A DNA stretch of 64,000 bases, taken from assembly GCA_029560585.1 (NCBI GenBank), contig JAKQKQ010000049.1, positions 62,001-126,000 on the forward strand. Direction: 5' to 3'. Shown in pieces: positions 1 through 43,504 of the stretch. This stretch comes from Verrucomicrobiota bacterium (lineage in GTDB: Bacteria > Verrucomicrobiota > Verrucomicrobiia > JADLBR01). Made by a program: the position numbers and the translations under genes. The notes below the pieces were generated by a model that searched no databases, was not told the origin of the DNA, and was given only the letters and a program-made list of their open reading frames with translations. How positions within the stretch are numbered: position 1 is the first letter of the stretch; the number at the start of each line of letters is the position of its first letter.

Positions 1-714
1 GAGCTGCATGATCCAATTTCGCCGAGCGTATTCCCGGCCGAAAAATTGCAGCGTCTCCGACTCAAATCCAAGGATGGCATGATCGGCGAGCCTGCAGCCC
101 ATTTTGTCGAAGGCGTCCATCGTGGCGACCATCGTCACCCGATCGGGCGCCGTCAGATCGTCCACGCGCAATGACGGGAGCACGCGGGATCCGAAATCCG
201 ATCTCGCCAGCCGGGCGTGGGCACCAAGGTCGTCCGCCGGCCGATCGGATGTGCACAGGCACTCGACATTGGCGCGCGCGATCAGCCCCCGCGCCGAGTA
301 ACCGTCGGCATGAAGCATGGCGTTGCATTTCTCCCAGATATGATCGGCTGACTCGGGCGACAGTAACTCCGAGATGCCAAAGTAACGCTTCAACTCCAGC
401 GCCGTCCAATGAAACAGGGGGTTACCGAGGGTCTGTGGCACTGTCGCCGCCCACGCGTCGAATCTCTCGCGGTCCGTCGCATCGCCCGTAATAAGCCGTT
501 CGGGCACACCCGCGATGCGCATGGCGCGATGCTTGTACGGATCGTTGGCGATCCAAACCCCCGTGATGTTATCAAACGTCCGGTCATCGGCCAAGTCGCG
601 CGCATCGATGTGATTATGAAAATCGATGATCGGCAATCCCTCGGCAATGCCGTGGTATAGCCGCCGCGCAACCGATCCCTTCAACAGGAAATCCTCGTGG
701 ATGAACTCTTTCAT
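1..714 (-). CDS. uxaC: Glucuronate isomerase UxaC, 3' end cut by window edge
   Basis: Cytoplasmic uronate isomerase that converts D-glucuronate to D-fructuronate and D-galacturonate to D-tagaturonate. The reading frame opens at ATG 712-714 and stays open to base 1, giving 238 residues of a family that is usually about 470 long. The start reads MKEFIHEDFLLKG and is followed by the family's DFHNHI metal-binding HxH (His33, His35), then ITGDATDRERFDAWAATVP and GNPLFHWTALEL, all strongly like Escherichia coli UxaC. Its start overlaps the stop of the upstream GH28 gene by ATGA, so galacturonan cleavage and uronate isomerisation look translationally coupled. The gene is truncated only by the window edge. 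Confidence 0.93.
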   Translation of the reverse strand, partial: MKEFIHEDFLLKGSVARRLYHGIAEGLPIIDFHNHIDARDLADDRTFDNITGVWIANDPYKHRAMRIAGVPERLITGDATDRERFDAWAATVPQTLGNPLFHWTALELKRYFGISELLSPESADHIWEKCNAMLHADGYSARGLIARANVECLCTSDRPADDLGAHARLARSDFGSRVLPSLRVDDLTAPDRVTMVATMDAFDKMGCRLADHAILGFESETLQFFGREYARRNWIMQL

Positions 715-20362: not shown

Positions 20363-21589
20363 TCAGGCGTCGCCCAGATTCTTCCTCAGGATGTCCATCG
20401 TTTCGCGCTGGCGCTGTTGCACGAACTCGCGCGCCTCGGCCGCCTTCGCCTTTGATGCGCCGGGATCCTTGGCCATCGCCAGCACCGTCGGCACGACGCG
20501 CTTGATGTCGGCCTCGTTATCGAAATCGAAGAGCCAGTCGCCGAGCCCGATGTCGCGCCACATGATGCCCTTGCTCGTCTGCTCCGCAAACCGGCAGACG
20601 ATTGCGGGCACGCCGTTCCCCAGCGCCATGATCGGGCTGTGCATCTCCGAACCAAAGAGCCCGGCGGATCGAATGTAGGTGCTGACGGCCTCGTCGGTGA
20701 GCCAATACCTCTCCCGCCAGACGACCCGCGCCTTCACGTCATCGGGCAACCGGTCGTACAGCATCTCCCTGCCAACCGCCATCTGGGTTGCGTCCTCCGG
20801 GCAGAGCAATACCTTCAACGGGGTCTGGCGCACCACGGCGACGATCGCCTCGCGAAGCGGCGCGTGGTCGTGCTCCTTCATGGCCTCGTTGCGCGCGTGC
20901 TTGCTCTCGTCAAATTTCTTGTTCGATTTGACCTTCCAGTACGGCGTGTGACGGAGGCGCGACAGGCAGCACAGAAATTTCCCTTCCTCCAGCCCGTTCG
21001 CCTGCAGGAATGCCGCGGCCGCCGCGTCGTTCCGCAGATCCACGGCGAATGCCCCGTCAGGGCCAAACTCCATCACCGGGCAGCGCACGCCGCTCTCCTT
21101 CGCGACAGCGAGCGAGACCGAATCGCGGAAGAATGCGAATTTCGCCGCACTCATGAGTTCGACGGTGCCCGTGCCCAGAGTTCCCACCGTGATCCCATAG
21201 ATGCCGAAGGGCTTGCCCGTCTCCTTGCGCCACCTCGCGAGGTCCTTCGCGGCCACGAGGGATGGCCCGGATCCGTGCAGCATGAAGTCGCATTCCTCAA
21301 ACGCCGTCTTGATCGCGTCCGCGCCCTCGATGATGGGCACCTTCGGAAATCTTCGGCGCAGCATCTCGTCCACGCCATTGTCCACCTTGCTGGGCCACAG
21401 CCGCACCTCGGCCTCGGGCAAATACTTCTCCAGCAGGGCGAGCACGCCCGGCGTGTGCCCGATATCGCCGATGTTGACGGTTTGCCACGAGGATCGAAGC
21501 ACGATCCGCGGCCGGCGTTTCTCGGCGGCGCACAGGGAGCCCGCCAGCGCGGCGGTGAGTGCTGTGTGGATGAAAGTTCGTCGGTCCAT
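20363..21589 (-). CDS. Polysaccharide pyruvyl transferase family protein with Tat-like leader
   Basis: A 408-residue protein from ATG 21589, which has a good GAGGA site. The N-terminus [20 protein letters not shown] is a twin-arginine or Sec leader (Arg3, Arg4). The rest matches the polysaccharide pyruvyl transferase family (PF04230): [10 protein letters not shown] at the start, [18 protein letters not shown], a strongly conserved [18 protein letters not shown] block, and a C-terminal KDPG region. Family members normally work in the cytoplasm, transferring pyruvate from phosphoenolpyruvate to glycans during surface polysaccharide synthesis. An exported homologue in a degradation locus is unexpected, and its reaction is unknown. 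The longer frame to 21799 is unlikely, since it would overlap the upstream GH5 gene. Confidence 0.78.
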
Positions 21590-21605
21590 GGGGTTGTCCT
21601 CTCTA

Positions 21606-23483
21606 TTAATGGTGATTGATCTCCACGCGGTCCAGTTCGGCCGGCCCATTCCAAAGCAGTTTGAGAAATCGTGCGCCCGATGGGACCGGGCACTCGTATT
21701 CCACCATAGTGCGACGCTGCCCCTTCGCCGCGCCGCCCGGCGGCACCGGCAAAGGCCGCGCGCTGCGTTTCGGCTGGAGCGAATCGTATTTGGCGCCATC
21801 GGCGGAGGCCTGCACGCCCATGTCCACGGACTGTGTCCCGAAGAAAGACACGACCTTCACCGAATCAATGGGCCCATTGACCCGATAACTCAGCCAATCG
21901 TTAGTATCGCCCCGCGCGCGGAATAAGTACTCCGCGTACATTGCGTTGTACTCGTTGTTCAATGTCAACCCTTCGGACTTGGCGAGGACACGTGTGAAAT
22001 CCTGTAGCTCATCCACAAAACAGACGCTCCTGACGTTGACCGGGCCGATGGCGGCCGAGGGCGGGGACGCCCCAGAGACGTTCCTTGCGATGGCGCGGTA
22101 GTACCACGTCTCCCCGGCGCGGGCGGCCGTGTCGCTGAAGAGCGGGCGATAGGCGGTGTCCGCATCGGAGATGTTTGTGGCGATGGTTGCCCATGGCCCG
22201 TTGGCGCCCGCCGCACGCTCGATGTCGTAGCCGCTCGCCCCGGCAGAACCGCGCCAGGACAACAGCGGCACGTCGCCGGCCGGCAGCATCTCGGGCGGCC
22301 CGGGCACGGGCATGGCCGGGACCGGCCTGCCCTGGATCTTGAAGGCGGCCTCCCGCATCGCGGCCATCACGCCGATTTCGCGCTGGGCATCCGCGCTCTG
22401 GAACCCGGGCCAGTGATACGACCAGACCGCGGGATAGGTCATGATCTGGTGCCAATAGAAGCCCCCGTCCTGGTGGTGGAAGTACATGCTCCAGATCAGC
22501 GCCCCGGGGATTCCCGGCTCCGACCGAACGTAATCCAGAAACTCGTGCAACTTGTCCACCACGTTGTCGTGCGCAAACATCTTCCCGTCGATGTAGGGGC
22601 CAAACTCGCCGATGAACAAGGGCCTCTGTCCCTTCAGCGATTCCATCTCCTTCCGGATCGCCCCGGCCCAGCCGTCCTCGACGCCGCGGTAGTTCGAGTA
22701 AAGGTGCCGCGTGAGAAGGTCTATGTTTGGATCAATAAAGAGGGGCTGGCCGGGCCGATGCCGGGTCTCGGCCACGAGGTGATTTGGCGCGAGTTGTTTG
22801 ATATATGCCGCCATCTCCGAGAGCCATGCGTCCGTCGCACTGTGCATCTCATTTCCGAATTGCCAGGCAAGCACGGCTCTTTCATCGCGATAGACCACGC
22901 CCGTGACGGTATTCGTCCGGCCCAGCACGTGCCGCACGGTCGCCTTGTAGTCCTCCTTAAGCTGGGGGTCGGTGTAGAACTCTTCGCGTTTTTTGCCCCG
23001 GTGCGCGGCATACGTTCCGATGCCGCCGAGATAATCGCCATACCCTGCCGTGAGATCCAAGATCACGCGCACCCCATACTTGTTCGCCAAGGCAAACAGA
23101 TGATCGATGGTCCCGAAAGCCTCCTCGTTGAACTCGCCCGGGCCATACACGTAGTGCCAGGACTTCCGGTCCTCATCCGGTGCCCGTATCGGGAGATTCC
23201 AGGTCCGCACCACCCGGAGATTCATCTGGTCGAGTGTCTTAAAGGCGTCCTCCTGCTCCCACGGTGTCGGCAGGTGGAGCCGTTCCGGCAGAAAGAGCGT
23301 CCAGTCGTAGGGGAGCACCAACCCGGGCATGTTTGCGCCCATGAAGCGAAACTCCTTCTCGCCGTCGTAAAGCCTGTTGCCCTGGCGGGTAATGAAATGC
23401 TCAAAGGCGGACGCGGGGCTGGTCACCGCCAACCACATCGCCGCCGCGGCCCCAACGCGCATCCATTCTTGCCGGATCTTCAT
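21606..23483 (-). CDS. GH5 mannanase-like enzyme with Fn3-type domain, secreted
   Basis: A 625-residue secreted protein; ATG 23483 has GGAG at a 5-nt spacer. After the leader, the barrel begins [20 protein letters not shown], typical of GH5 subfamily-7-like beta-mannanases. The acid/base is in [11 protein letters not shown] (Glu212) and the nucleophile in LFIGEFGPY (Glu293). A fibronectin-III-like stretch ([19 protein letters not shown] to [10 protein letters not shown]) occupies about residues 400-490, followed by a final beta-sandwich ([13 protein letters not shown] onward) that looks like a carbohydrate-binding or discoidin-type module. Endo-acting cleavage of mannan or glucomannan is the best guess, consistent with GH2 and GH38 genes upstream. 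Confidence 0.85.
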
Positions 23484-23507: not shown

Positions 23508-24359
23508 TCACACTCCCGACGATGCCAGGAATCCCCCATCCACGGGCACGGTGATCCCCGTGACAAAGCCTGCGCTCTCATCATCGAGCAGCCAGCACAC
23601 GGCTCCGAGCAAATCGCGCGCCTCGCCGAATCGTTTCATCGGCGTGTGCGCCATCACGTTCTGGCCGCGGGCGGTCAGTCCACCCCGATCGTCCATCAGG
23701 ATCTTGCGGCTCCGCTCATTGGCAAAAAAGCCGGGTGCCACCGCGTTCACCCGAATGCCGGCGGGCGCGAGATAGGCCGCGAGCCATTGGGTCATGTTGG
23801 CCACCCCGGCTTTAGAGAGGGAATAGGCGAGATTCTTCGACAGCGGGCGGTAGCTGTTCATGGATGCAAAGTTCACGATGGCACCTTGGCCCCGCCGCGC
23901 CATTTCCCGACCGAAGACCTGGCACGGTATGAGCGTGCCGATCGTGTTCACCCTGATGACGTCCGCCATTCGCCCGGGGTCGAGATTGAAGAAGCCGCGC
24001 AGGCCCTCGGGCAGAACATCGCCGATCTCCTCGGGTTGGAACTCCGTCAGGGTGGTCACCGCGTCATTCCGATTGCCTCCGGCGCCGTTCACCAACAGCG
24101 TGCATGTCCCCAGTTCCTTCGCGACAGTCGCGCGGATCGCCTCGACCGCCGTAGCATCGGTGACGTCCGCGCCCAACGGCAGGGCCGTTCCCCCGGCGGA
24201 CTGAATGGCCGAGGCCACCGGCTCCAGCTTTGCCACGGTGCGGCCGACCAGGGCGACTTTCGCGCCTAGCCGCGCCAGTTCGATGGCGATGGCCGAGCAG
24301 AGCGTGCCACCCCCACCGGTTACGACGGCGGTTTTGCCTTGAAAGAAAGTTGTGCTCAT
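23508..24359 (-). CDS. SDR-family D-mannonate oxidoreductase (fructuronate reductase)
   Basis: A 283-residue short-chain dehydrogenase with VTGGGGTLCSAIA (cofactor loop), LLVNGAGGNRNDAVTT, Ser166, Tyr179 and Lys183 (AYSLSK). The NGAGGN motif, the roughly 30-residue insert after it, and the C-terminal GLTARGQNVMAHTPMKRFGE and VPVDGGFLASSGV blocks are characteristic of SDR-type D-mannonate oxidoreductases, which interconvert D-fructuronate and D-mannonate. That step directly follows glucuronate isomerisation by UxaC. Start overlaps the MFS transporter stop by ATGA, so permease and oxidoreductase are coupled. This is a non-homologous replacement of classical UxuB. Assignment is family-based and fairly confident. 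Confidence 0.82.
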   Translation of the reverse strand: MSTTFFQGKTAVVTGGGGTLCSAIAIELARLGAKVALVGRTVAKLEPVASAIQSAGGTALPLGADVTDATAVEAIRATVAKELGTCTLLVNGAGGNRNDAVTTLTEFQPEEIGDVLPEGLRGFFNLDPGRMADVIRVNTIGTLIPCQVFGREMARRGQGAIVNFASMNSYRPLSKNLAYSLSKAGVANMTQWLAAYLAPAGIRVNAVAPGFFANERSRKILMDDRGGLTARGQNVMAHTPMKRFGEARDLLGAVCWLLDDESAGFVTGITVPVDGGFLASSGV

Positions 24360-26517: not shown

Positions 26518-28863
26518 CTACCGAATGGCGCGCGCCCCACAAAGGAGATCCCGCGCCTGCCCGGCACCCGTGTCCGCCAAGATGAGATATGTGCGCGGGC
26601 CGACGGACACGTCAAAGCACCCGCCGTCGCGCGCGCACGGCAAAATTTTTCCGAAGGGGCGCATGACGACCGCGGCCCGACCAGACATTCTCAGGCGGAT
26701 TTCGCCCTCGACCGCCCAACAGAGAACCCACGTGTCCTCCGGTTTGGCGGCGCGGTGGAAGAGGAACGCTTTCACCGCGCCCTCGGCCACGCCGACCACC
26801 TCCTCGATCTCGACCAGCTCGTGACGCCCCTCCTCGTTGACGAAGAGATGGTGTTCGCGGCGGTCGGCGAGAATCCGCCGCTGCGAGCCGGTGAGGTTTC
26901 GGTTCTCGCGACAGTTCTGATAGATGGCCCTCTGCTCATAGCATGGCACATATCGCGCGTCCTCCGGTGACACGTTTCGCAGCCGCCGCCGTGCGTCATC
27001 AGTGATTCTGTCTCCGAGCCGGGCATCTTCCCAGGTCTTGATCGAGCCCAGGCAGTCCTCGGCGCGGGGATTCGACTGGAACTCCTCCAGGGAGGCGTTG
27101 AGGGAGATGGGGCAATCCCACCCCGCCGCACGACTTGCGACATACTCATAGACGTCCGGGCCCGCGCATCCGAGCTTCGTGCGGCCAAATCGCCCGAGCC
27201 ATCCAAAGTCAATCCTGGAGAAATCCAGCGCGCGGGCCGCCGCTGTCGGGCACGGCATGAGGCGGCAGAAGTCTTTCATGCCCTCGGGCGCCGCGATGTT
27301 ATCGTAAGCGTTCGCGCGGCTCATCATGTGCCAGCCGAAATGCGTGTAGTGCGCCGCCTCGCAGACTGTCGGCGGCGGATCGAGCAATCGGAACACCCGA
27401 TACTGCGCGGAAGCCGCGTGATACCAGAACGGCTCATGCACGTCTTCCGCCCCGTCGAAATACACCATGTCGTAGGGTCCGCTCTCGCGGTAGATGTCCG
27501 CCAGGCGGCGCGCGACCTCGTCCTGGATGTCGGTATTCTGGTCGAGGCGGATGAAGTCCGGCCACGTGTCCACGTCCAGCAGGCCAAGCTTTGTCCCCGC
27601 CGCCTGCGGTGCCGCGCGCGTTCCCAGATGCCCGCGCCGACAACCGGTGAACTGGAATGGCGCGCCGCTGCTGTAGCCCTCGTATTCGATGAGTTCCTTT
27701 CCCAGTTTGAGGATCCGGCGACCCTTGTCCAAGGTGCAGCCCGCCGGATCCTCGCGCACCGAGACAGTCGTGGCATCGGCCGTCACGTTGTCCGACAGGG
27801 CAAACGCGCGGATCGCGTGCAGCCGGTCGTCGGGCACGGGACTCACGTAGGGATCCACCTTTGAGGCCTTGCTGTAATGTATGTGCAGCCCGATCCTGAG
27901 CCCCGCCGCACGGATCGCACCGGTGACGGTTCTGAGATCGGCCATCCCGTTGGGAAACCGGTCGTTCCACTCGAAGTGTCCCGCCCCCTTCGAAAATGCC
28001 CTGTACGAAAGCATGATCATGCGGAAACCACTCAGCTTGGCCCAGCGGATGTACTGATCGATGTTTCTCGGGTCTGGCCGACTCGCCCAGAGATACGAGA
28101 GGCGCTGGAGCGGAGATCGGCGAAATGCGACGCCCGGCGGCAGGAGAAAATCGCGCTCCACATTAGCCATCGCATCCAGAAAATTGTCTTTCGGATCGCG
28201 GCATCCAAACAGGACGGCCACCGCACCGGGAAATCCCACGGTGGCCTCCGCGGCCGCCACCATCCGCACGCGGCCCTCTTCCGGCAACATCTCGATGTCC
28301 GTATTCAGGCTTCCGGCACAGAGGCAGACTCCGAATTGGTCATCGGATACCAGATCAACCCACTGGCCCAGCTTCGGCAGCCGGCGGACGCTGAGCCTCG
28401 GAAACTCGATGCGGTCGACGGGTCCCCCATCCAGTTCGAGAAGCTCGAACGCCAGATAGCCACCGGTTCGAATGACGCGGTAGGTGGCCCTGACGTCGGC
28501 CCCGCCAAAGTCGATCATGAGCCTGTCACCCTGCTGCCGCACGCGCGTGGCATCGGAGCGCGAGCCGCCCTCGTAGATCCATCGCCCGGTGACGGCGGCA
28601 TGTGGGCCTTCGCCCGCCGACACCGAATGACCGCCGCGATAGATCGCCGCGATCGCCCGGGACCCGTCGCCGGATGCATATTCGGCGTCGCCCTGCGTGG
28701 CGACGAGACCGCGCAATGTGCCATCCTCGCCAATCTCCAACCGGAGGTGATCGGTCTCAAGAGTCACGCCGGCGAGCGCCTGGACCGAAAGCAGCGCGAG
28801 CGCCACCGCCAAGATTGGTGGTGCGCGACCGGGCAAGATGACAAGGGGTGACCGATTGTTCAT
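26518..28863 (-). CDS. Unclassified secreted glycosidase-like protein (two-domain)
   Basis: A 781-residue secreted protein (leader about residues 10-30) that I do not recognise as a named family. Residues about 33-260 look like a mutarotase-type beta-sandwich (LETDHLRLEIGEDGTLRGL). Then comes a barrel-like region beginning YLWASRPDPRNIDQYIRWA, with LRIGLHIHYSKASK and YDMVYFDGAED, reminiscent of clan-D or GH31/GH36-type alpha-glycosidases with Asp catalysts. Inside the barrel is a roughly 80-residue insert (GKELIEYEGYS, FTGCRRGHLGTRAA). ATG 28863 starts 7 bases after the GH2 stop; the frame's extension to 29139 overlaps GH2 and is dismissed. Specificity cannot be read; GH2 and GH38 neighbours suggest a mannose-rich substrate. 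Confidence 0.62.
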   Translation of the reverse strand: MNNRSPLVILPGRAPPILAVALALLSVQALAGVTLETDHLRLEIGEDGTLRGLVATQGDAEYASGDGSRAIAAIYRGGHSVSAGEGPHAAVTGRWIYEGGSRSDATRVRQQGDRLMIDFGGADVRATYRVIRTGGYLAFELLELDGGPVDRIEFPRLSVRRLPKLGQWVDLVSDDQFGVCLCAGSLNTDIEMLPEEGRVRMVAAAEATVGFPGAVAVLFGCRDPKDNFLDAMANVERDFLLPPGVAFRRSPLQRLSYLWASRPDPRNIDQYIRWAKLSGFRMIMLSYRAFSKGAGHFEWNDRFPNGMADLRTVTGAIRAAGLRIGLHIHYSKASKVDPYVSPVPDDRLHAIRAFALSDNVTADATTVSVREDPAGCTLDKGRRILKLGKELIEYEGYSSGAPFQFTGCRRGHLGTRAAPQAAGTKLGLLDVDTWPDFIRLDQNTDIQDEVARRLADIYRESGPYDMVYFDGAEDVHEPFWYHAASAQYRVFRLLDPPPTVCEAAHYTHFGWHMMSRANAYDNIAAPEGMKDFCRLMPCPTAAARALDFSRIDFGWLGRFGRTKLGCAGPDVYEYVASRAAGWDCPISLNASLEEFQSNPRAEDCLGSIKTWEDARLGDRITDDARRRLRNVSPEDARYVPCYEQRAIYQNCRENRNLTGSQRRILADRREHHLFVNEEGRHELVEIEEVVGVAEGAVKAFLFHRAAKPEDTWVLCWAVEGEIRLRMSGRAAVVMRPFGKILPCARDGGCFDVSVGPRTYLILADTGAGQARDLLCGARAIR

Positions 28864-28870
28864 GGCCAAT

Positions 28871-31705
28871 TCACTCCCCGATATCGATGCGTTTGGTCGG
28901 CGCGTTCCACGCGCCAACGGCAACCTCGGCCCCGCCGCGATGCCCGGGCTCTCGCCAGAGAATGTCGATCTGCAACTCGCGCTCCTCCCCCGGCCCCAGC
29001 CAGAAGAAATTATCGGTGGCGTAAAAGGCCCGCCTGGCGCCCCCGACATCGACCGTCGTGTTGAACGCCGGCGTGTCGCCAGAGTTCTTGATGTGCACCC
29101 GCAGCCGACTGCGGTCGCCGGCGATCCGATCGCGCGCAACGAGCGATGCCTCCAGCGCCGTCGGTTTCGATGCCGCCTGCGGCTTCAGCCACGGGCCTTT
29201 GTCAAACGTGAGCCCCGGTTGCGGCGTCGCGCGGTATTTCTCGCGGAATGCCCCATCGCTCATCCGCGCCAGGCAGCGCGGCCAATAGACCGATCGAGAG
29301 ATCAGCCCCTCCCCGCCATCGCGCAGTTCCGCCACGACAAAGAAGAACTTCTCCTCGAAGTCATCGGGTATCGCAAAGCTGCCGAAGTCGAACGCGGCGA
29401 CCGATGGCCCGGGCGCGAGCGCCACCGGTTGCCCCTTGCGCCACCGCGACACGAAGCCCCCATCAAAGATCTCGACCGATGCCCTCAAGCCCTCCCGCGC
29501 CTCCCGGGGCGCGTGGACGACGCGCACGTCGATGGGGAACCGCTCTCCCTTGGCCCACATCAATTGCGGCAGCTTAACCAGAACGTGCGCCGGCTCGTAG
29601 GTCCGTTTCAGGAAGTAATACGGCGCGGTCGGATGCCCGAAACCATCCACGAGCATGATCGCGATCACCGGCCAAGGGCGCTTGAAAACCCATGGCATCA
29701 GGCCGGACGTGACGGGATAATTCGCCTGCACCTGATCGGAGAAAATCTGGTAGAATTCGCCGGCGCCGATCTGCGTGCCCTCGGCGAGCGCCTCCAGCGA
29801 CGGCGCACTCACATCGACGACCTGGGACGCGCGGCTCAGCATCCGTGGCACGCGGCTGGCCTGGTATTCCACAAAGTGATGCATCAGCTCCGGATGCTCG
29901 GCCGGAAAGGTCTTCTCCATCATGCCGCCGAGGGGCCCGTTGACCTCGCTCGCCGCCACCAATTCGCGGATGGAGTCGGCGTCGGGAATGCTGTGCATGC
30001 CAGTCTCCGAGATGAATGGCACCAGCCGATACAGGTGGCCATACCACGTTGGGTCCATGTCGGGATAGGTGTGCAGGCTCCCCGCATCGGGACTGGTGCG
30101 CCGCATCGGTCGCGTCGGATCGAAATCGGCCAGGCAGCGCTCGAAGATGCCTATGCTCGCCGCATTGCCAAACGAGTAGGGGTTGAATTCGTTGCCGCCG
30201 CACCACAGCGCAAGCGAGGGATGATTGCGCAGCCGAAAGACGGTCTGCATGACCTGGGCCTCCCACACGTCCTGCGGCCATTCGGGCGTCCCGCGATTGC
30301 CTATCGGAAAATCCTGCCAGACCATGATGCCAGCTTCATTGCAGGCGTCGTAGAATGCTTCCGTCTCCAGGATGCCGCCACCCCACACGCGAAGGAGCTG
30401 GATGCCCGCCGCCTTCGCCGCCCCGATCAGCCAGCGATAGCGCTCGCGGGGCAAATCCAGCAGGATGTCGGCGGGCATCCAGTTCATGCCCTTTATGAAC
30501 AGCGGCCGACCGTTGACCACGAACTGCCAATTCCCCCATCGATCGGCGGTGCGCGGGCCGGGAGTCGGCACCGTCTCGATCGTGCGGATGCCAGCATCGA
30601 ACTCCAGGGCGTCCTCGGCGCTCCCCTCGCGCACGAGCGTGAGCCTGACCCGATAGAGATTCGCCTCGCCCATGCCATTCGGCCACCACAGCCTCGGGTT
30701 GGCGATGGTGAACCCCTGCCGCACCCAGTTGCGGCCCGCGCGTATCCGCAATGGGATAGTGCGATCCAACACCGTCGCGCCATCGCCTTTGGACGCCAGT
30801 TCCACGCGCAGCCCGAACCGCGAATCGCTGGGCGCGGACTCGCTCCAACCGCGCGAGCCGTCGGCCAGCTGCGCGTCCTTCCACGGGTGCGGCTGGAACT
30901 GCGTCGAGTTTGTCCCCAAGAGAACCTCGACCTCGAGCGACAGGCGCGCCTCGCTGGCACTCGCACGCTCGGTCACGAGGAATGGTCGTTCCAGATGGCC
31001 GGACGGCACGATCTCCACGCGGGCGCCCTGCCACATCCCGAGCGGGAAAAACATCTCGCCGCCCGTGCCGCCGGCGATGACCCAGGGCTTGATGACCGTG
31101 CCCTCCGGGCCCCGCGGTTTCCATCCGGCCTTGTTGCCAAAATTCCCGGCCTTCACCTCGACGACGATCTCGTTCGCCGCGCCAAATCGCGCCTGCTTGC
31201 TGATCTCGATGGCCGGTCCCCCAAACATTCCCTCGTGGCGGCCCAGCAACACGCCGTTGAGCCACACGCGCGCGAAGTAATCGATCCCGTCGAAGCAGAG
31301 ATAGACATACCCGTCGCCCCCGACCGAGGGCAAATCGATCGTTCGGCGATAATACCAGACCTTCTGGTCAACCCAGTCATAGTCCCTGGAATTCAGGTGC
31401 GCGTAGGGATGGCCGCACTTGCCCGCCCGGTGCAGTGCCCACTGGACCGTGCACGGCACCCGCGCAGGAAACCAATTGGTGATCGAACCCAGTTCCGGGG
31501 CGCCATTCACCGCCGTGTCCCGCCAGCCGAGTTGCCAATCGCCGTCGAGCGCAATGTGCTGCGCTCCGTCGCGCGGCGTGATCCGAAATGGCTGCCACAG
31601 AGTGTCCACGTTGTTCGTAGCCACCGGCGCCGCGACCGTGGCACTTTGGACCAAGCCGGTCAGCCCGACCCCGATAAGAAAGACGATGTGTTTCATCATA
31701 AACAT
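28871..31705 (-). CDS. GH2 beta-mannosidase-like enzyme, secreted
   Basis: A 944-residue GH2 enzyme with a leader (residues 1-25), an N-terminal sugar-binding jelly roll (VWYYRRTIDLP, VWLNGVLLGRHEGMF), the immunoglobulin-like domain, the barrel (FIKGMNWMPADIL, LLRVWGGGILETEAFYDACN) and C-terminal beta domains. Acid/base is in LALWCGGNEF (Glu506) and nucleophile in FISETGMHS (Glu567). The WGGG and CGGNEF blocks resemble beta-mannosidases rather than beta-galactosidases. The last 80 residues form an NEW3/CARDB-like tail (RVHIKNSGDTPAFNTTVDV). It follows GH38 after 6 bases, so both are probably expressed together to strip mannosyl residues. Confidence 0.85.
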   Translation of the reverse strand: MFMMKHIVFLIGVGLTGLVQSATVAAPVATNNVDTLWQPFRITPRDGAQHIALDGDWQLGWRDTAVNGAPELGSITNWFPARVPCTVQWALHRAGKCGHPYAHLNSRDYDWVDQKVWYYRRTIDLPSVGGDGYVYLCFDGIDYFARVWLNGVLLGRHEGMFGGPAIEISKQARFGAANEIVVEVKAGNFGNKAGWKPRGPEGTVIKPWVIAGGTGGEMFFPLGMWQGARVEIVPSGHLERPFLVTERASASEARLSLEVEVLLGTNSTQFQPHPWKDAQLADGSRGWSESAPSDSRFGLRVELASKGDGATVLDRTIPLRIRAGRNWVRQGFTIANPRLWWPNGMGEANLYRVRLTLVREGSAEDALEFDAGIRTIETVPTPGPRTADRWGNWQFVVNGRPLFIKGMNWMPADILLDLPRERYRWLIGAAKAAGIQLLRVWGGGILETEAFYDACNEAGIMVWQDFPIGNRGTPEWPQDVWEAQVMQTVFRLRNHPSLALWCGGNEFNPYSFGNAASIGIFERCLADFDPTRPMRRTSPDAGSLHTYPDMDPTWYGHLYRLVPFISETGMHSIPDADSIRELVAASEVNGPLGGMMEKTFPAEHPELMHHFVEYQASRVPRMLSRASQVVDVSAPSLEALAEGTQIGAGEFYQIFSDQVQANYPVTSGLMPWVFKRPWPVIAIMLVDGFGHPTAPYYFLKRTYEPAHVLVKLPQLMWAKGERFPIDVRVVHAPREAREGLRASVEIFDGGFVSRWRKGQPVALAPGPSVAAFDFGSFAIPDDFEEKFFFVVAELRDGGEGLISRSVYWPRCLARMSDGAFREKYRATPQPGLTFDKGPWLKPQAASKPTALEASLVARDRIAGDRSRLRVHIKNSGDTPAFNTTVDVGGARRAFYATDNFFWLGPGEERELQIDILWREPGHRGGAEVAVGAWNAPTKRIDIGE

Positions 31706-31711
31706 TGGAAC

Positions 31712-34525
31712 CTACTGTGCTCGCACCGTGACGATTTCCCAAGCCCGGGTGAGGACGGCGCCGTCGGGCGAAATCCCTGGTCCCGCCCCTTTTTTCAACG
31801 GCTGCTCCTGCAGATCTGCGCGCTCCAGTGTCCTGGGGGATGGCGCCGTGGACAACCGCACCTGACACGGGCTTCCCGCGCCCTCATACCAGCGCGCGAT
31901 AACGCCTCTCCCGTCCTCGGCCTGTTTCAGGCAAGTGAGCAGCGGGTCCCCGTGGCCATCGAAAACCGCGACAGTCGCGAGCGATTTTGCGCGGGGGAGC
32001 GACTTTGGGCTCCACGTGTCGTTGACCGTGTAGGCCAGCAGCGGCTGCGTGGCCTCCCATCCTACGCGCGGGATGCGGGCCGCCTGCCATGACCTGGCGT
32101 GTGGCTGGAACCTGAAGTTGAAAACCAGGCCGACGCGCGGATCGGGCCCATCCATCATGGGGTCCAGTGGCCGCATCCGGCCGCCCCGCACCAGGCAACA
32201 CCGAACGGCTGCGCCGCCCTCCGCGTCATCCAATCGGGTCCAACGATGCGAAGTCGCCATGGCCAAACCGCGGCTGCCATCGCAGACATCGAGCCAACGA
32301 CTGATCTCGCGCGTTCGCTCCCATGACTCACGCGAACCTTCGTCGCCTTCGACTGGGCCGCTTCCGGGCATCAGCTGTTCCGCGCCAAACGCGCCGGCAC
32401 CAAATGGCAAACCATAGGTGGTCCGTGCGCCCTTGAGCGGAACCTGATAAGCGAGCTCGATCCGCCCAAAGCGCCGCAGGTCCCACTCAAGCCTCACTTC
32501 CACATCCGCCCACTGCAGGTCGCGATGGAGCGAGTATCGCACTTCGGCGGGCGCGCCGAGCACGCTGCCGCGCACCGCCACGGACATCTGCACCGGTCCG
32601 TCGGCCAATACGCGCATCGCGTCGGACCCGGTGATCACAAACGGCACGGTCCTCTCACGCGCGGGATCGTCCACCGATAGGCCAAGCGGCGGACGGCGGC
32701 AGACCTCCGGCAGCTCCTCGCGGCCCACGAGACCCAGGCCCTCCACCAGCGATCCTGTTTTGCCGCGCAGCGAGGTGAGCTTCGCCAGCCCGGTGGAACG
32801 TTCGATGGTCAGGCGGACGGCGCCGTTCTCTAAAACAATCTCGGGCGAATCAGACTCGAACCACACGCGCTGGACCATCCGCGGCCGACCGGCGGCCCAC
32901 TTTGCCTCGGTCGCGGCCGCCTCCTCGGGCGCGGCGGGCTCAAGCGTGTAACTGGCGTACCCGAGCGCAGGCACATTTCGCGCGACAAATGAAAAATCGA
33001 ACTCGCCCAGGGTCTCACGCCGATCGGCGGTGATCTGAAATGGCACCGGTTGGCCGCCGGGATCGCGCAGCACCATGGCGCTCCCGCGCGGAAAAATGTC
33101 ACGCCCGCCGCCGCCAGCGACCGAATATCCGGTAACGTGGGCATTCACCACGTCGGAGCGCTCCCAGTTCAGAGTATTGAACACCACGATTGGCACGCTC
33201 TCGCGCGGGGCCTCCACGCGTTCCGCGATCGCCGCCATGGCCCCCGAGGAAAGCACCTGAGCGCGATGCTGCACGGCGCGGCGCTCGGCGAACTTCCTCG
33301 GATGACCGCCGCCGGCACCCTGGCCACCGTAGTTATGATCGCGCGCCACGAGCAACGATTTCCAGATCTGCTCCAGCTCCTCCCGCGGATAGGGCCGGAA
33401 GCCATGAAGCCACGCGAGCGCGCACAGACGTTCGGCCGCGTCCAGCGCCCGAGTCGCAACCGAGTCCCACCGACTTATGTGTGCGTGCGCCGGCTCAAGA
33501 TACGGCCACGTCGATGGCAGTTCGCCCCGCAGAACCGGCGCCTTGTCGGCCACACCCGCCGCGCGCATTGCGCGGAAATAGGCGGTGGGTGTGGCGATCG
33601 CCAAACGCTGCCCCTTTGTCGCCTCGGCGTTCCACGCGCCAATGGCGGGCGCCAGGGCCGGTGGCGGTAACCATTGGTCGCTCCCATAAAAGAACAGAGA
33701 CGGCACGCCCGCTTTAGCCACCCCCGCGAGCCGGTCGGCCAGGCCCCGCTTGCGCATCGCCCCGGCGTCGAGATGGGCGCCGTAGCCGGAGGCCTGATTA
33801 TATCCTTTCGAACTCCACGTCAGAACGCGCGCCCCGCCGGGTGCCTCAAACCAGAACAGCGTGTCGGGCGGCGCGCAGCGCGTGAGCACGAGATTGCGGA
33901 TGCCGAGCCCGGCGCACAGTTGCGGCAACTGCGGGACCACGGCCGGGATGTCGGTGAGCTGGAGAGTCTCGAGTTCCAGCTTGTATCGCTCGCGCGCGTA
34001 GGTCTTCGCAAACAGGATGTTGCGGACGAGATCTTCCTCGTCCTCCTGGGCCACGTAGATGCCGCTCCATTCGGCGCCCAGTTCCACCCGGCCGGCGCGG
34101 ATGCGCTCATCGATCCGCGCGGCTTCCTCGGGATGTGCCGCGCGATACGCCTCCAAGAAGAGCACATACTCGATGAGGAAGTGGAAATCCGGCTGTTTAT
34201 CCAACAGGTCCAGCGCACCCGCGAAGACCTTGCCGCCGCGCGAGAGACATTCCTCGACCGTGCCCATGAACGTCAGGTCGAGGTGGGACATCGGCGCGAT
34301 GTAGGCCGCAATCTCCGATGGCGCGTCGCTCCTGGCGCGCGTGTCGCGGGCCTCTTCGGCGCCAGCCGCAATCGCAAGCGCCGACAACGTGCCGGCCAAC
34401 AATGTTCGAATGGCCCTCGTCGCAAAACCTCGGGATACCGCTTTTCCCAATTCTGCGGGCGACCGGTCGGTTTTCCGGATCACCGGGATCAAGACGGCGG
34501 CTGTCTGTGTTCTCATGGAATTCAC
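31712..34525 (-). CDS. GH38 alpha-mannosidase-family protein, secreted
   Basis: A 937-residue protein of the GH38 type, zinc-dependent retaining alpha-mannosidases. The metal-binding block is PMSHLDLTFMGTVEE (His81, Asp83), and LQLTDIPAVVPQLPQL (Asp192) corresponds to the nucleophile loop. The middle three-helix domain and large C-terminal beta domains follow (FNTLNWERSDVV, VRLTIERSTGLAKLTSLRG). A long leader ends near AIAAGA. The GTG start (34525) overlaps the stop of a small ORF as GTGA; ATG 34516 is the alternative. Substrate could be mannan side chains or N-glycan-like glycans; families close to GH38 also act on other sugars, so linkage is uncertain. Confidence 0.82.
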   Translation of the reverse strand: MNSMRTQTAAVLIPVIRKTDRSPAELGKAVSRGFATRAIRTLLAGTLSALAIAAGAEEARDTRARSDAPSEIAAYIAPMSHLDLTFMGTVEECLSRGGKVFAGALDLLDKQPDFHFLIEYVLFLEAYRAAHPEEAARIDERIRAGRVELGAEWSGIYVAQEDEEDLVRNILFAKTYARERYKLELETLQLTDIPAVVPQLPQLCAGLGIRNLVLTRCAPPDTLFWFEAPGGARVLTWSSKGYNQASGYGAHLDAGAMRKRGLADRLAGVAKAGVPSLFFYGSDQWLPPPALAPAIGAWNAEATKGQRLAIATPTAYFRAMRAAGVADKAPVLRGELPSTWPYLEPAHAHISRWDSVATRALDAAERLCALAWLHGFRPYPREELEQIWKSLLVARDHNYGGQGAGGGHPRKFAERRAVQHRAQVLSSGAMAAIAERVEAPRESVPIVVFNTLNWERSDVVNAHVTGYSVAGGGGRDIFPRGSAMVLRDPGGQPVPFQITADRRETLGEFDFSFVARNVPALGYASYTLEPAAPEEAAATEAKWAAGRPRMVQRVWFESDSPEIVLENGAVRLTIERSTGLAKLTSLRGKTGSLVEGLGLVGREELPEVCRRPPLGLSVDDPARERTVPFVITGSDAMRVLADGPVQMSVAVRGSVLGAPAEVRYSLHRDLQWADVEVRLEWDLRRFGRIELAYQVPLKGARTTYGLPFGAGAFGAEQLMPGSGPVEGDEGSRESWERTREISRWLDVCDGSRGLAMATSHRWTRLDDAEGGAAVRCCLVRGGRMRPLDPMMDGPDPRVGLVFNFRFQPHARSWQAARIPRVGWEATQPLLAYTVNDTWSPKSLPRAKSLATVAVFDGHGDPLLTCLKQAEDGRGVIARWYEGAGSPCQVRLSTAPSPRTLERADLQEQPLKKGAGPGISPDGAVLTRAWEIVTVRAQ

Positions 34526-36632: not shown

Positions 36633-36758
36633 TCAGCGTTTCGAGCAGCGGACAACGCGCGTCCCATGCTGCCCTATCGGCAGCGTGAATCTGGCCGGAT
36701 CGAGTCCAGAGGGATTTCTGTCGCCGTGCGGCAGGACTTTCCATCGGCGGAACATCAT
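36633..36758 (-). CDS. Small ORF (41 aa) between glycosidase and MFS genes
   Basis: ATG 36758 overlaps the stop of the upstream DUF5060-type gene as ATGA; the frame ends 13 bases before the MFS start, just ahead of its GGAGG. The product begins MMFRRWKVLPHGD and contains ARFTLPIGQHGTRVV. No known domain. It fills most of the 135-base gap 36620..36754, which also contains a hairpin. Confidence 0.25.
   Translation of the reverse strand: MMFRRWKVLPHGDRNPSGLDPARFTLPIGQHGTRVVRCSKR
36665..36687. other. Intercistronic hairpin
   Basis: Nine-base arms (36665-36673 and 36679-36687) around a 5-base loop pair with one G-U. It lies between a glycosidase gene and the MFS gene, without a following T run on the minus strand, so mRNA processing or attenuation is more likely than termination. 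Confidence 0.3.
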
Positions 36759-39328
36759 TGGAGAACCACTTTCATCGCCACATCCTTCTCGACCGGCGGC
36801 AATGCGCACTTCACCACCAGGTCCACGGATCGGGCTTCCGTGCAGGAAACGACTTTTCCACCCCGCGTGTCCCAAAACTCGACCCTATAGGCACCGTCTT
36901 TCCTCACCGGCACATCAACCTCCGCTCCCGCGATCGTGGGCGGTGCCTTCCCCTGATGGCCTGCCTCGAACCAGTTGTATGAGCGGTTCTGAACCCACGC
37001 CAAACTCTTGCCCTCGGACCGCAGGCTGAAGGCGCGGAGCCCGGCGTGCGAAACGGCGGGCGTCGCCATCTCCCAGTGCGGCCTGGTGAGTGATTCGCCC
37101 GCCAGGAAGGCGCGCATGGCCGCGGCGTGGCATAACTGGTCCCGCTGAACGATGAATGCCCCAAGCCATTCGGTTCCGCCGACGGCATTCTTCAAAAACA
37201 GGCTGATCCAAAGGTGATTGTGGAAAGAGATCGCCTCGGGAAACTTCCATCGCTCGCCGGTGAGGTAATAGAGCGCGCGCCTGGGGCCGTAGGCGTCTTC
37301 GGGCTTCGTCCACTCGACCATGCCGCCCTCGGGGTTGATAAGCGGACAATTGAACCCCCCGTATTTCTGCATCAGTTCAAGGCTCAGCGTCACGGCGTCC
37401 ACCTCGCGCTTGAAATACCAGTCTGGAATGATGATCGCGTCGCCACCCTCGGCGATCGAGCGCGGCCCCTCACACATCACGTGAGGATGTTCGTAGACGT
37501 CGATCGCGCGCACGTAGTTCTGGAGGCCCTTGATCCACGAGCGCACCATCAGGGGCGAAAAGCGCGATCCCGCCTGCCCCTCATCGCCGATGGCCCAGAC
37601 CAGCAGCGCGGGGCTGTCGCTCATCCGCCCAACGAAGTAGCGGAGGTGATCTCTCTGCATCTCCAGGGCCCGCTCGTTGACGTACAGATCTTCGATGCTT
37701 CCGCAGGGGCCACCCTGGGCGGAGGAATACGGCAATGTGTCCAGGCCGTAGATGACCGACCGGCAGAGATCGTCGTAACAGGTGACCCAATAGATGCCCA
37801 GCGCCTCCAGCGTGCGCAGCCGATGCTCGCATTTCCACGCCACATGCTGATCGATGTAACCACCGCGCGTGTAGAGCCGGCCGAAGAACTCCGCCAGACA
37901 GTAGTCATAGTTGGAGCCGCCCTCGGCCTTGCGCCGATAGTAGTCGTCGAGCCGACGCGTGGAAACGCAGCGCGGGTTTCCACCGAAGATGTAGTTCGGG
38001 TCACGGAACCACCCGCTCGGGCCAATGCCGAAGAATGACTCCCCGTTGTCGAACTCGAAGAACCGAGGGTCCTCCTTGCTCACGCGCAGGAAGCCCTTTC
38101 GCGCCGATGCGGTGACCTCGAGCGCGTGGCCGGGTGTCCGCCGCACCCCTGTCCTGTCCTGGGCCAGCACGTGGAGTTTGTGAACGCCGATCTCGCGCGG
38201 CCGATAGTACAGCCGCCAGGGAATGCACCGCTTGGGCAGCAGGATCTCCTCTGTCTCGTCGGCCGCGATGGATGTGAAGTCCTGCCAGAAGAACGCAGGC
38301 ACCTTCTCCGTCCTCCCCGACGGGGTTTCCACCACCGCCTGCACGTTGATCTGCCGGGGATCGAACGCGTTCTCATAGGTTGCCGCCAGATCGACCGGAA
38401 TCGTGAGCAACTCGAATCGCTCCGCGCGCGCTGGCATCGCATCGCAGCGCACGGCCAGCGGTCTCTCGTCGCGCGTCGGGCACACCTCGTCAAGCTCGAC
38501 GCGATGTGGCCCGGCCTTCTTCGCGGCAGCCTCTGCCGGAAACACCAGCACAAGCTCGTCATCGCGGAGAATATACGGTGGCACCTCCATCGCGCGCAGC
38601 GCGTCGGGCTCAAACGCGGTCCGCCCGCCGCGCGCGAGCAGCGCATCGCCCAGGTGCAAAACGACGGATACGGATTTCGCCGGATCGCCCTTCAGTCCGA
38701 TGCCCCCTCTCGCCGTCCGTTCGTAGGGCAGCGTGCGATACAAAAAGACATGGCCCAAGATTCCGCCGCCGCGCGCCTGCGCCGAGTCAATCACGCGCAC
38801 CATCAGCAGGTTCTCTCCGCCGAATCTCACCGATGGCGTGAGATCGATATCGACCGGCCCGGGAACGCGGGCGCCCCAGTGATACATCTTTCGCGCCAGA
38901 TGCGCGCCGTTGAGGACAAAATCGGCCGCGTCATCGACCGCCGTGCAGAAGAACCCCAGCCGGTATCCTCGCAATTCCGCGGGAACACGGAACCGAAGCC
39001 GGAGCCACGTGACCTTGTCGTTCAACTCCGGATGTCCGATGTTCTCCCAGCGCATCCCAACCTGGATCGGTTTCCAACCCCCCTCCTGGTCGATCGCCCC
39101 ACATTCCATCTTCGCGCGCTCCGCATCGCGCCGCATGTCGGCATCGCTGCGCCCGAATCCAACGCCGGATGCCCACGCCGCATCCTTGGCGAGATGCTCC
39201 CATGGTGCCCCCCGGACATCCACCAGCAGCGCATCAACGCCAAACTCGATCGCATCGGAACCACGCGCGATCGATGCCGCCAGCAATAGCTGGGCACATA
39301 TCGTCAATCCCGTCACTCCCGCATTCAC
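36755..39328 (-). CDS. DUF5060-type secreted glycosidase-like protein
   Basis: An 857-residue secreted protein. The start is GTG 39328 with AGGAG upstream (9-nt spacer); a signal peptide follows. Residues about 90-200 are a GH2-like jelly roll (WLRLRFRVPAELRGYRLGF, FVLNGAHLARKMYHWG). Around residues 370-460 lies the DUF5060-like immunoglobulin fold, ending FLRVSKEDPRFFEFDNGESF then FGIGPSGWF, which opens a TIM-barrel domain. Candidate acids are in LVWAIGDEGQ and LINPEGGMVEW. The C-terminus is another beta-sandwich (RVEFWDTRGGKVV). DUF5060 proteins are putative endo-glycosidases of clan GH-A; specificity here is unknown. Confidence 0.65.
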   Translation of the reverse strand: MNAGVTGLTICAQLLLAASIARGSDAIEFGVDALLVDVRGAPWEHLAKDAAWASGVGFGRSDADMRRDAERAKMECGAIDQEGGWKPIQVGMRWENIGHPELNDKVTWLRLRFRVPAELRGYRLGFFCTAVDDAADFVLNGAHLARKMYHWGARVPGPVDIDLTPSVRFGGENLLMVRVIDSAQARGGGILGHVFLYRTLPYERTARGGIGLKGDPAKSVSVVLHLGDALLARGGRTAFEPDALRAMEVPPYILRDDELVLVFPAEAAAKKAGPHRVELDEVCPTRDERPLAVRCDAMPARAERFELLTIPVDLAATYENAFDPRQINVQAVVETPSGRTEKVPAFFWQDFTSIAADETEEILLPKRCIPWRLYYRPREIGVHKLHVLAQDRTGVRRTPGHALEVTASARKGFLRVSKEDPRFFEFDNGESFFGIGPSGWFRDPNYIFGGNPRCVSTRRLDDYYRRKAEGGSNYDYCLAEFFGRLYTRGGYIDQHVAWKCEHRLRTLEALGIYWVTCYDDLCRSVIYGLDTLPYSSAQGGPCGSIEDLYVNERALEMQRDHLRYFVGRMSDSPALLVWAIGDEGQAGSRFSPLMVRSWIKGLQNYVRAIDVYEHPHVMCEGPRSIAEGGDAIIIPDWYFKREVDAVTLSLELMQKYGGFNCPLINPEGGMVEWTKPEDAYGPRRALYYLTGERWKFPEAISFHNHLWISLFLKNAVGGTEWLGAFIVQRDQLCHAAAMRAFLAGESLTRPHWEMATPAVSHAGLRAFSLRSEGKSLAWVQNRSYNWFEAGHQGKAPPTIAGAEVDVPVRKDGAYRVEFWDTRGGKVVSCTEARSVDLVVKCALPPVEKDVAMKVVLQ

Positions 39329-39402: not shown

Positions 39403-41244
39403 TCACGGTCCATGTGGATCCTCCCCGATCGCGTATGTGCCAGGAGCAAGCAAGAACGAGCCGTCGGACGCCGCTGGCACCGGATCGCCTTGGCCGCGCC
39501 GCCTGCACACCGTCTTCCTCTTGTCCCCCAGCCGAAAGGTGAAGCGCCGCGGCCCCTCGAGCAACCGCGACACCACGGGCCATTCGTTGACATTCATGTA
39601 CCGGTTGGCCATCGGTCGGAACGAGCGGCCTCGGAAAGGATCATTCACCAGCCGCTGGTTGGGAAACACGACCAGCTCCCAGCCGCCAGAGCCGGTGCGA
39701 TCTAATCGGTAGGCCCCATTGCCCTCGGCACTGACAAAGCGCGAGGATCCGCTGGCCAGTATGACGTCGGGCACCGCCGCGGGCGTCTCGTTATCCGGCA
39801 GATTGCCCGAATGGACGAGCATGCCGTCGCCGGAGAAAACGACCGTGTCCGGATCGCGCCGCACCGACCAGCCCTCGCCGCTCCATCGGCTCGAATCCGC
39901 CGGCAGGCGGCCGTCGCGGGGCGCCCGCCGGAAAATCTCGCCGGCCGCGACAAACGCGATCGCGCGCTCGGGAGTGTGCAAGAGATTCAAGAAATGTATG
40001 CGCCAGCCGGGGTTGTATGCCGCGACCGCCGTGGGCGTGTGGGTGAACATCGCGGCCATCTGCGCCCGGCGGGCCGCAAAGGCCAACGCCATCGCACCAT
40101 ACGGATAGCCCTGCAGCGTGCTCGGCGCGTTGAACTCGTAGATGATGCGCGGGCGGTCCTCGGCGCGCTGGCCGATCACCGTCTCATTCCACGCCCGCAC
40201 CAGGTCCAGAAAATTGAGGCCGTCATTCCAGCTGGACTCAAAACCCCGGCCGCCCGTCGGGTAGCAGCCGGTGGTGTAGGCGTCGACCCCCGCGGCGCCG
40301 AGCGCGCCGCGGATGCGGTCGCTGCCAAGCGATGCGTCGCTGTGGGCGCGCAGGTAGGGCCGCCCCATCGCACCGTCGATCGCGGCGAACATCCGCCTCA
40401 GGTAGCGCTCCACCAGTTCCCCGCGAAACCCGTCGAAAACCTTCGCCTCTTCGCCGGGATGCGCGCCACGATAGGTGTTCCAGAGCCCGCGCAGCTGCGC
40501 GCGCGCCGCACCGGCGGACTGGGACGCCTCGTGCATGTTGTCCTTCGGATCCCGCTCGAGCATCCCCGCCGTCACGTACTTCGGCTCATTGAACGGCTCT
40601 ATGGCGACCAGATTCGGGAAGTCGGCGTACCGCCGCCCCGATATGCTGCTGCGGCGGCCCAGCAACTCGGCGACATATCGCTCCTGGCAGCGTATGGCAT
40701 CCTCGTTCCAGATCATCTCGTCCACGCCATAGAAGTTTGAGAACCCAAAACTGCCGCCCACCCCCACGTGCCAGTACGCGTAATAGCGGTCCATCAGCGA
40801 CTGATTCTCCGGCGTGTTCCACCAGGCCACGGGAGTCAACATCACGAAAATGCCCGCGCGATCCAGTTCCTCCATGAGCAGATCGAATACCTCGAGGTGA
40901 CGGTTCGGGGTCAGGTGGCCTTCGCGGTCACTGATCTCGCGGTCAAAGACGTGAATCCGGACGAAATCCAGGCGCATGAGCCGGAACTGGGCGATATCCT
41001 CCGCGATCGCCTGCCGATAGTCGGCGCCGACCTCGCCGAGGTTCTGATAGTTGTGGCTGAATGGCGCGTAGTAATTCACACCCCAGAGCCTCACCTCGCG
41101 CCCGGCGACGTCCCGGATGATACCGTCGCGCACCGCGAACGGCGCGACGAACCGCGCGGGGCTCGGAGAACCGGGCTCCGCGAATGACATCCCGCCAGCC
41201 AGCGCAACGGCGCACAGCGCCGATAGACCCGCGCGATCCTTCAT
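39403..41244 (-). CDS. GH5-like (clan GH-A) glycosidase, secreted
   Basis: A 613-residue protein from ATG 41244, which has a textbook ribosome-binding site (AAGGAGG, 7-nt spacer) and a Sec leader ending near SFAEPG. The barrel opens FVAPFAVRDGIIRDVAGREV then LWGVNYYAPF; the acid/base is IEPFNEPKYV (Glu220) and the nucleophile IIYEFNAPST (Glu370). A C-terminal beta domain of about 170 residues follows. The WGVNYYAP opening and loop lengths fit large unclassified GH5-type or GH-A enzymes of PVC bacteria. The frame also contains an in-phase GTG (41340) overlapping the enolase stop as GTGA, which would add 32 residues. Confidence 0.78.
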   Translation of the reverse strand: MKDRAGLSALCAVALAGGMSFAEPGSPSPARFVAPFAVRDGIIRDVAGREVRLWGVNYYAPFSHNYQNLGEVGADYRQAIAEDIAQFRLMRLDFVRIHVFDREISDREGHLTPNRHLEVFDLLMEELDRAGIFVMLTPVAWWNTPENQSLMDRYYAYWHVGVGGSFGFSNFYGVDEMIWNEDAIRCQERYVAELLGRRSSISGRRYADFPNLVAIEPFNEPKYVTAGMLERDPKDNMHEASQSAGAARAQLRGLWNTYRGAHPGEEAKVFDGFRGELVERYLRRMFAAIDGAMGRPYLRAHSDASLGSDRIRGALGAAGVDAYTTGCYPTGGRGFESSWNDGLNFLDLVRAWNETVIGQRAEDRPRIIYEFNAPSTLQGYPYGAMALAFAARRAQMAAMFTHTPTAVAAYNPGWRIHFLNLLHTPERAIAFVAAGEIFRRAPRDGRLPADSSRWSGEGWSVRRDPDTVVFSGDGMLVHSGNLPDNETPAAVPDVILASGSSRFVSAEGNGAYRLDRTGSGGWELVVFPNQRLVNDPFRGRSFRPMANRYMNVNEWPVVSRLLEGPRRFTFRLGDKRKTVCRRRGQGDPVPAASDGSFLLAPGTYAIGEDPHGP

Positions 41245-41336
41245 CGTGCGCCCTCCTTGGATCGCCGCCATCGCGCCAAGGGCGGCGGCGCTGGAGAGAG
41301 CACGCACTAGCAGGTCTCCTAAGGACGCCGCCATGT

Positions 41337-43455: not shown

Positions 43456-43504
43456 GCCGTCACTCCGTCTGCTCAAGACCGGCGCCACCCCTTGCCCAAT
43501 GCCG

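Follow-up and report, generated by a model that had tools for sequence, protein, structure and literature searches.

A phage-tail-hub-type module inserted in the predicted barrel of an unclassified glycosidase-like protein family with distant kinship to GH36

Background

The described proteins closest to those reported here fall into two settings. Glycosidases of GH36 (PF02065, Melibiase), assigned with GH27 and GH31 to clan GH-D, consist of a beta supersandwich and a (beta/alpha)8 barrel and carry an aspartate in the context K[WY]D on beta-4 as well as the motifs CSGGG..R and WTSDN; GH27, GH31, GH101, GH129 and the protein of PDB entry 5opq have related barrel folds. The second setting is that of tail baseplate proteins of phages and gene transfer agents, in which a small beta barrel with the signature E...RG..T...H..G is represented by the Pfam family Rcc01698_C (PF23666) and by the hub of phage JBD30. 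Rcc01698 is the 'megatron' baseplate protein of a gene transfer agent (PMC7296036). In P0001, a protein encoded in the 64,000-nucleotide stretch of Verrucomicrobiota DNA analysed here (the window), a module of the second kind is found inside a glycosidase-like barrel, in a bacterial catabolic cluster. No account of this combination was found in the literature, of which a part was covered. As judged from sequence and a structural model, P0001 is best described as a member of an unclassified, probably new glycosidase family with predicted activity, distant kinship to GH36 and a phage-tail-hub-type module.

Results and discussion

The gene and its family

The P0001 gene (Table 1) starts with an ATG at 28863, preceded by a ribosome-binding-like GGGGAG, and its ORF is intact. 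Residues 1-31, as read by eye, comprise a basic start, a hydrophobic core and the sequence ALA/G, suggesting that the protein is probably exported from the cell. Six orthologues share 58-73% identity with P0001 and come from metagenome-assembled genomes labelled Verrucomicrobia, Kiritimatiellae, Pirellulales, Pirellulaceae, Planctomycetota and, in one case, uncultured bacterium. Since these six other genomes contain orthologues and more distant members share 21-36% identity, the comparison argues that P0001 is a real conserved protein and not a chance reading frame.

About 80 distinct members were collected, mostly from Verrucomicrobiota and Planctomycetota. Members are present in 32 of 388 genomes of the source phylum and in 15 of 294 genomes of the phylum to which the Pirellulales genome belongs. 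The source genome has two paralogues of P0001 (33% and 26% identity), and a single genome of the same phylum (G348) gave 13 matches, representing at least 11 separate genes. These paralogues lie on contigs C1, C4, C5, C9, C15 and C16 (L010, L079, L081, L083 and L085-L091), a strong local expansion. Distant members are frequently 900-1500 aa long, with LamG-like, CBM11-like or F5/8C domains. Distant relatives of the barrel (about 26% identity) also occur in two actinomycete replicons, the Embleya plasmid records NZ_CP108777.1 and NZ_CP108785.1, whose gene table has no entry at these places.

P0001 matched no Pfam family, even at E values up to 1, and no NCBIfam family; neither P0001 nor its module matched PHROGs, and a single-sequence search of PDB sequences returned chance matches only. 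An earlier note, made from the letters of the DNA, had proposed a large unclassified glycosidase-like family, and the number of relatives and the lack of a Pfam or NCBIfam assignment bear this out; no confident match to an existing GH family was found in either collection. The family is thus a good candidate for a new glycoside hydrolase family. That part of the proposal stands, with the qualification that the barrel is no orphan but has GH36 as a distant relative (see below). If active, these proteins would constitute a glycosidase family that has no name in Pfam or NCBIfam and belongs to degraders of complex polysaccharides.

Table 1. Positions of the P0001 gene, its predicted domains and residues, and neighbouring genes in the window
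Feature	Position	Strand	Basis or remark
P0001 gene, complete, 781 aa + stop	26518..28863	minus	translation, ORF, orthologues 58-73% identical
Signal-peptide-like N-terminus, residues 1-31	28771..28863	minus	by eye; low pLDDT 1-29
N-terminal beta supersandwich, residues 32-223	28195..28770	minus	AF2; Foldseek to GH36/GH101/GH31
(beta/alpha)8 barrel part one, beta-1 to beta-3, residues 240-349	27817..28146	minus	AF2, HMM, hhalign GH36
Small beta module, residues 350-430, beta-3/alpha-3 connection	27574..27816	minus	alignment, PF23666, Foldseek, AF2
E390, invariant (68/68), in module	27694..27696	minus	alignment A3
R410, invariant (68/68), in module, start of RG..T signature	27634..27636	minus	alignment A3
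Barrel part two, alpha-3 to beta-8 and next helix, residues 431-616	27016..27573	minus	AF2, hhalign without module
D470, predicted nucleophile, end of beta-4 (YFDG)	27454..27456	minus	67/67 rows; opposite GH36 KWD aspartate
E502, end of beta-5, possible GH101-like acid/base	27358..27360	minus	32 residues after D470; subfamily-conserved, not family-wide
D521, predicted acid/base, end of beta-6 (R516-x4-D521)	27301..27303	minus	66/67 rows; strand from AF2
C-terminal beta domain, residues 668-781, P0001 subfamily	26521..26862	minus	AF2
GH2-family neighbour	28871..31705	minus	7 bp upstream of P0001; Pfam Glyco_hydro_2_N2, 5.7e-23
GH38-family neighbour, alpha-mannosidase type	31712..34525	minus	6 bp beyond GH2; Pfam Glyco_hydro_38N, 9.6e-19
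D-mannonate oxidoreductase, SDR type, downstream	23508..24359	minus	NF006132, 333 bits (cut-off 281)
Uronate isomerase UxaC, cut by window edge	1..714	minus	PF02614; G000:C24:61497-62714, window begins at C24:62001

Predicted fold and relation to known glycosidases

An AlphaFold2 model of P0001, built with 68 aligned family members (mean pLDDT 92.5, pTM 0.90), consists of an N-terminal beta supersandwich, a (beta/alpha)8 barrel interrupted by a module of about 80 residues, and a C-terminal beta domain that is covered by about 21% of the alignment rows, many rows having been trimmed ahead of it. The earlier note had read a mutarotase-like sandwich followed by a barrel and had called for structure prediction; the model agrees with that reading and specifies a supersandwich and barrel of the GH36/GH101 type. 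The motifs it quoted are likewise present, YDMVYFDGAED as residues 464-474 and both EYEGYS and FTGCRRGHLGTRAA within the inserted module.

In a Foldseek search of the PDB, the top match of the model was the GH36 galactosaminidase 8x1b (E 1.6e-16), and the other leading matches were GH36 4fnr, GH101 2zxq and 5a55 (E about 2e-15), GH31 and 5opq. Over the full length, TM-scores to GH36 reach only 0.35-0.40 when scaled by query length, with an rmsd of 13-16 A; low values of this kind are typical of a distant multi-domain relative. The sequence profile of the family pointed in the same direction: its HMM, searched against 177,635 PDB sequences, placed GH36 chains first (8x1b/9awt, E 3.8e-5), the matched stretch being beta-2 and the following helix, part of a signature shared over beta-1 to beta-3. 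With hhalign, the family matched a profile of 23 GH36 proteins from the same phylum at E 5.4e-7, the alignment ending at the module; after the module columns were removed, the E value improved to 2.5e-8 (local) and 1e-9 (global) and the alignment crossed beta-4, setting YDMVYFDG of P0001 opposite ITYVKWD of GH36. Such an improvement is expected of an insertion into a GH36-like barrel. Beyond beta-5, the profile alignment places no acid/base confidently.

These results identify GH36 of clan GH-D as the nearest known, though distant, relative of the family. One might go further and regard P0001 as a divergent GH36 alpha-galactosidase or galactosaminidase, with no new family involved, since GH36 is closest in both profile and fold and a single distant member gives a weak Pfam Melibiase match (E 0.0036; 16.8 bits, the cut-off being 27 bits). 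However, P0001 itself lacks a Melibiase match even at E 1, both CSGGG..R and WTSDN are absent, and the source genome contains separate Melibiase proteins that score above the cut-off. P0001 further differs from GH36 by the phage-like insertion after beta-3, by the replaced lysine of K[WY]D (VYFD) and by the other context of D521, R-x4-D. We therefore regard a mere divergent GH36 enzyme as quite improbable and treat the family as probably distinct.

Candidate catalytic residues

We infer from position and conservation that D470 is probably the nucleophile and D521 the acid/base. In the counts given here and in Table 1, the total of 67 is the number of rows of alignment A3 that have any residue at that column. 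D470 (67/67) is alignable to the beta-4 aspartate of GH36, and its place at the end of beta-4, with D521 (66/67) on beta-6 of the model, would fit the nucleophile and acid/base positions of clan GH-D. Loss of all acidic residues from the pocket, which would have told against the earlier note, was therefore not observed. Also nearly invariant are W511 (66/67), R516 (62/67), H327 and W555.

A different assignment would make the family nearer to the endo-alpha-N-acetylgalactosaminidases, with GH101/GH129-like catalysis by nucleophile D470 and acid/base E502. Besides the GH101 structures 2zxq and 5a55 among the top Foldseek matches, hhalign with the module deleted gave GH101 a probability of 81%, and E502, conserved in the P0001 subfamily, follows D470 by 32 residues, the same distance as between nucleophile D764 and acid/base E796 of the pneumococcal GH101 enzyme (titles of PDB mutant entries). 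Yet many of the distant members have M, Q, K, S or G in place of E502, in contrast to the almost constant D521; the profile match to GH101 (E 1.2e-5, from a profile of only three sequences) is weaker than that to GH36 (2.5e-8); GH129 gave no hhalign match; and P0001 has no match to GH101 in Pfam. Catalysis of the GH101 type thus appears improbable, and D521 is preferred as the acid/base.

It could also be argued that P0001 has kept the fold only and is a non-catalytic carbohydrate-binding or scaffold protein, to which the LamG and CBM11-like fusions of distant members would be equally suited. The near invariance of D470, D521, H327, W511, R516 and W555 among members at about 25% identity is, however, the pattern of an active site, and the presence of at least 11 copies in a single genome suits degradative enzymes, so that a non-catalytic role seems very unlikely.

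By analogy with GH36 and GH27, P0001 is predicted to be a retaining alpha-glycosidase-like enzyme. We consider it fairly likely, on the whole, that P0001 is a secreted clan GH-D-like glycoside hydrolase of an unclassified family, cleaving alpha linkages with retention by means of D470 and D521. In the proposed mechanism, D470 would attack the anomeric carbon of an alpha-glycosidic bond, which would be cut with retention; D521, at the end of beta-6, would serve as acid/base; and W511 and R516 may shape the sugar pocket, as the analogy with GH36 and GH27 suggests. Naming D470 and D521 makes the candidate catalytic residues available for testing.

The inserted module

The earlier note had described an inserted module of about 80 residues with a pattern reminiscent of segments in phage tail and other unrelated proteins. 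The module is indeed there and, far from being confined to P0001, is present in all 68 aligned members, and E390 and R410, both within it, are the sole two invariant columns of the entire alignment A3. At the level of the aligned sequences, the module is a hallmark of the family, and its insertion between beta-3 and alpha-3 was presumably fixed in the family ancestor.

The likeness to phage tails held up as well. With E 1 as the limit, 33 of 64 modules matched Pfam Rcc01698_C, the lowest value being 2.8e-6, as compared with at most two modules for any other family; on full-length members it scored 13-20 bits, the gathering score being 27 bits. P0001's own module gave no Rcc01698_C match, and a search of the source genome with PF23666 at E 0.001 gave nothing. 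As tblastn of one module against phage genomes found none, even at E 10, the link to phages rests on profile and fold, not on pairwise identity. Folded alone, the module was predicted with pLDDT 94.5 and, in Foldseek, superimposed on the JBD30 baseplate chain 8rk3_b with an rmsd of 1.9 A over 82 columns (TM 0.77, E 0.093). An HMM of the modules searched against PDB sequences likewise placed the 8rk3 JBD30 tail protein first, at a non-significant E of 0.48, and the E, RG, T, H and AGA of the JBD30 segment line up with those of the modules. The 8rk3 chain concerned would be the hub, with residues 491-558, the stretch matched, as its domain VI. When whole P0001 was compared with viral proteins by Foldseek, matches of about 80 columns were obtained, a size that fits the module, their positions along P0001 not being given.

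Small beta barrels readily converge, and the module could be an unrelated barrel that has come to resemble the phage tail fold: its E values in the PDB search are modest (0.013 at best), and F1-ATPase beta barrels appear among the lower-scoring matches. Against this, fold and sequence agree, about half of the modules being recognized by PF23666, the JBD30 residues occurring in the same order, and the rmsd to 8rk3_b being the lowest listed. We thus think convergence rather unlikely and favour a tail-hub-type origin.

A catalytic role of E390 and R410 was considered and downgraded. The JBD30 hub segment carries this E and RG too, so that a structural reason for their invariance is more probable than a catalytic one. 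The module would emerge at the catalytic end of the barrel, where it would probably form a wall beside the pocket or pack on another domain or subunit. One may speculate that a tail-hub domain was captured once by a glycosidase barrel, became indispensable and, with E390 and R410 as the sole residues that never vary, is now part of the substrate site. Its capture would then have given rise to a new clan GH-D-like family, whose expansion in Verrucomicrobiota and Planctomycetota served the breakdown of acidic glycans; we hold this scenario to be doubtful. A tail-hub-type module fixed in a catalytic barrel would cleanly illustrate how virus structural proteins and carbohydrate enzymes share a domain, and its role, sugar binding or packing, becomes testable in a soluble enzyme.

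Gene neighbourhood and possible substrate

P0001 is encoded in a minus-strand run with tiny gaps, in the order MFS transporter, CBM9-like protein, GH38, GH2, P0001, SDR, MFS transporter and D-mannonate oxidoreductase. The closely packed GH38-GH2-unknown cassette seen by the earlier note is confirmed (gaps of 6 bp between GH38 and GH2 and 7 bp between GH2 and P0001), and the SDR gene follows on the other side after 18 bp. The GH38, GH2, D-mannonate oxidoreductase and UxaC genes, together with a protein of a polysaccharide-lyase family at 42544-43662, suggest a glycan containing mannose and uronate. The orthologue with 73% identity (L002) likewise has GH38, GH2, UxuA, an MFS transporter and a mannonate oxidoreductase (82% identical) nearby. 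Two other orthologues (L001 and L003, 70-72%) have no GH38 or GH2 neighbours within 8 kb, and the link to a substrate is therefore only a lead. The products would probably enter a uronate and mannose pathway in which GH38 and GH2 also take part; a glucuronomannan-like glycan, for example, is a tentative candidate for the substrate, and this is the weakest step of the proposal.

Several other observations were made around these genes. The uronate pathway genes (UxaC and D-mannonate oxidoreductase) are scattered along one strand, the minus. On the same strand, 20363-21799 encodes a polysaccharide pyruvyl transferase domain protein, a biosynthetic family unexpected in a degradation run; 36755-39328 encodes a protein of 857 aa with weak matches to a GH2-type N-terminal domain and DUF5060, possibly a further unclassified glycosidase; and 39403-41592 encodes a protein of 729 aa with no Pfam or NCBIfam match. 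At L001 (5480-12490, plus strand), a pair of neighbouring WbsX-like proteins (PF14307, the second match being weak) directly precedes the orthologue, and a DUF6259 protein directly follows it.
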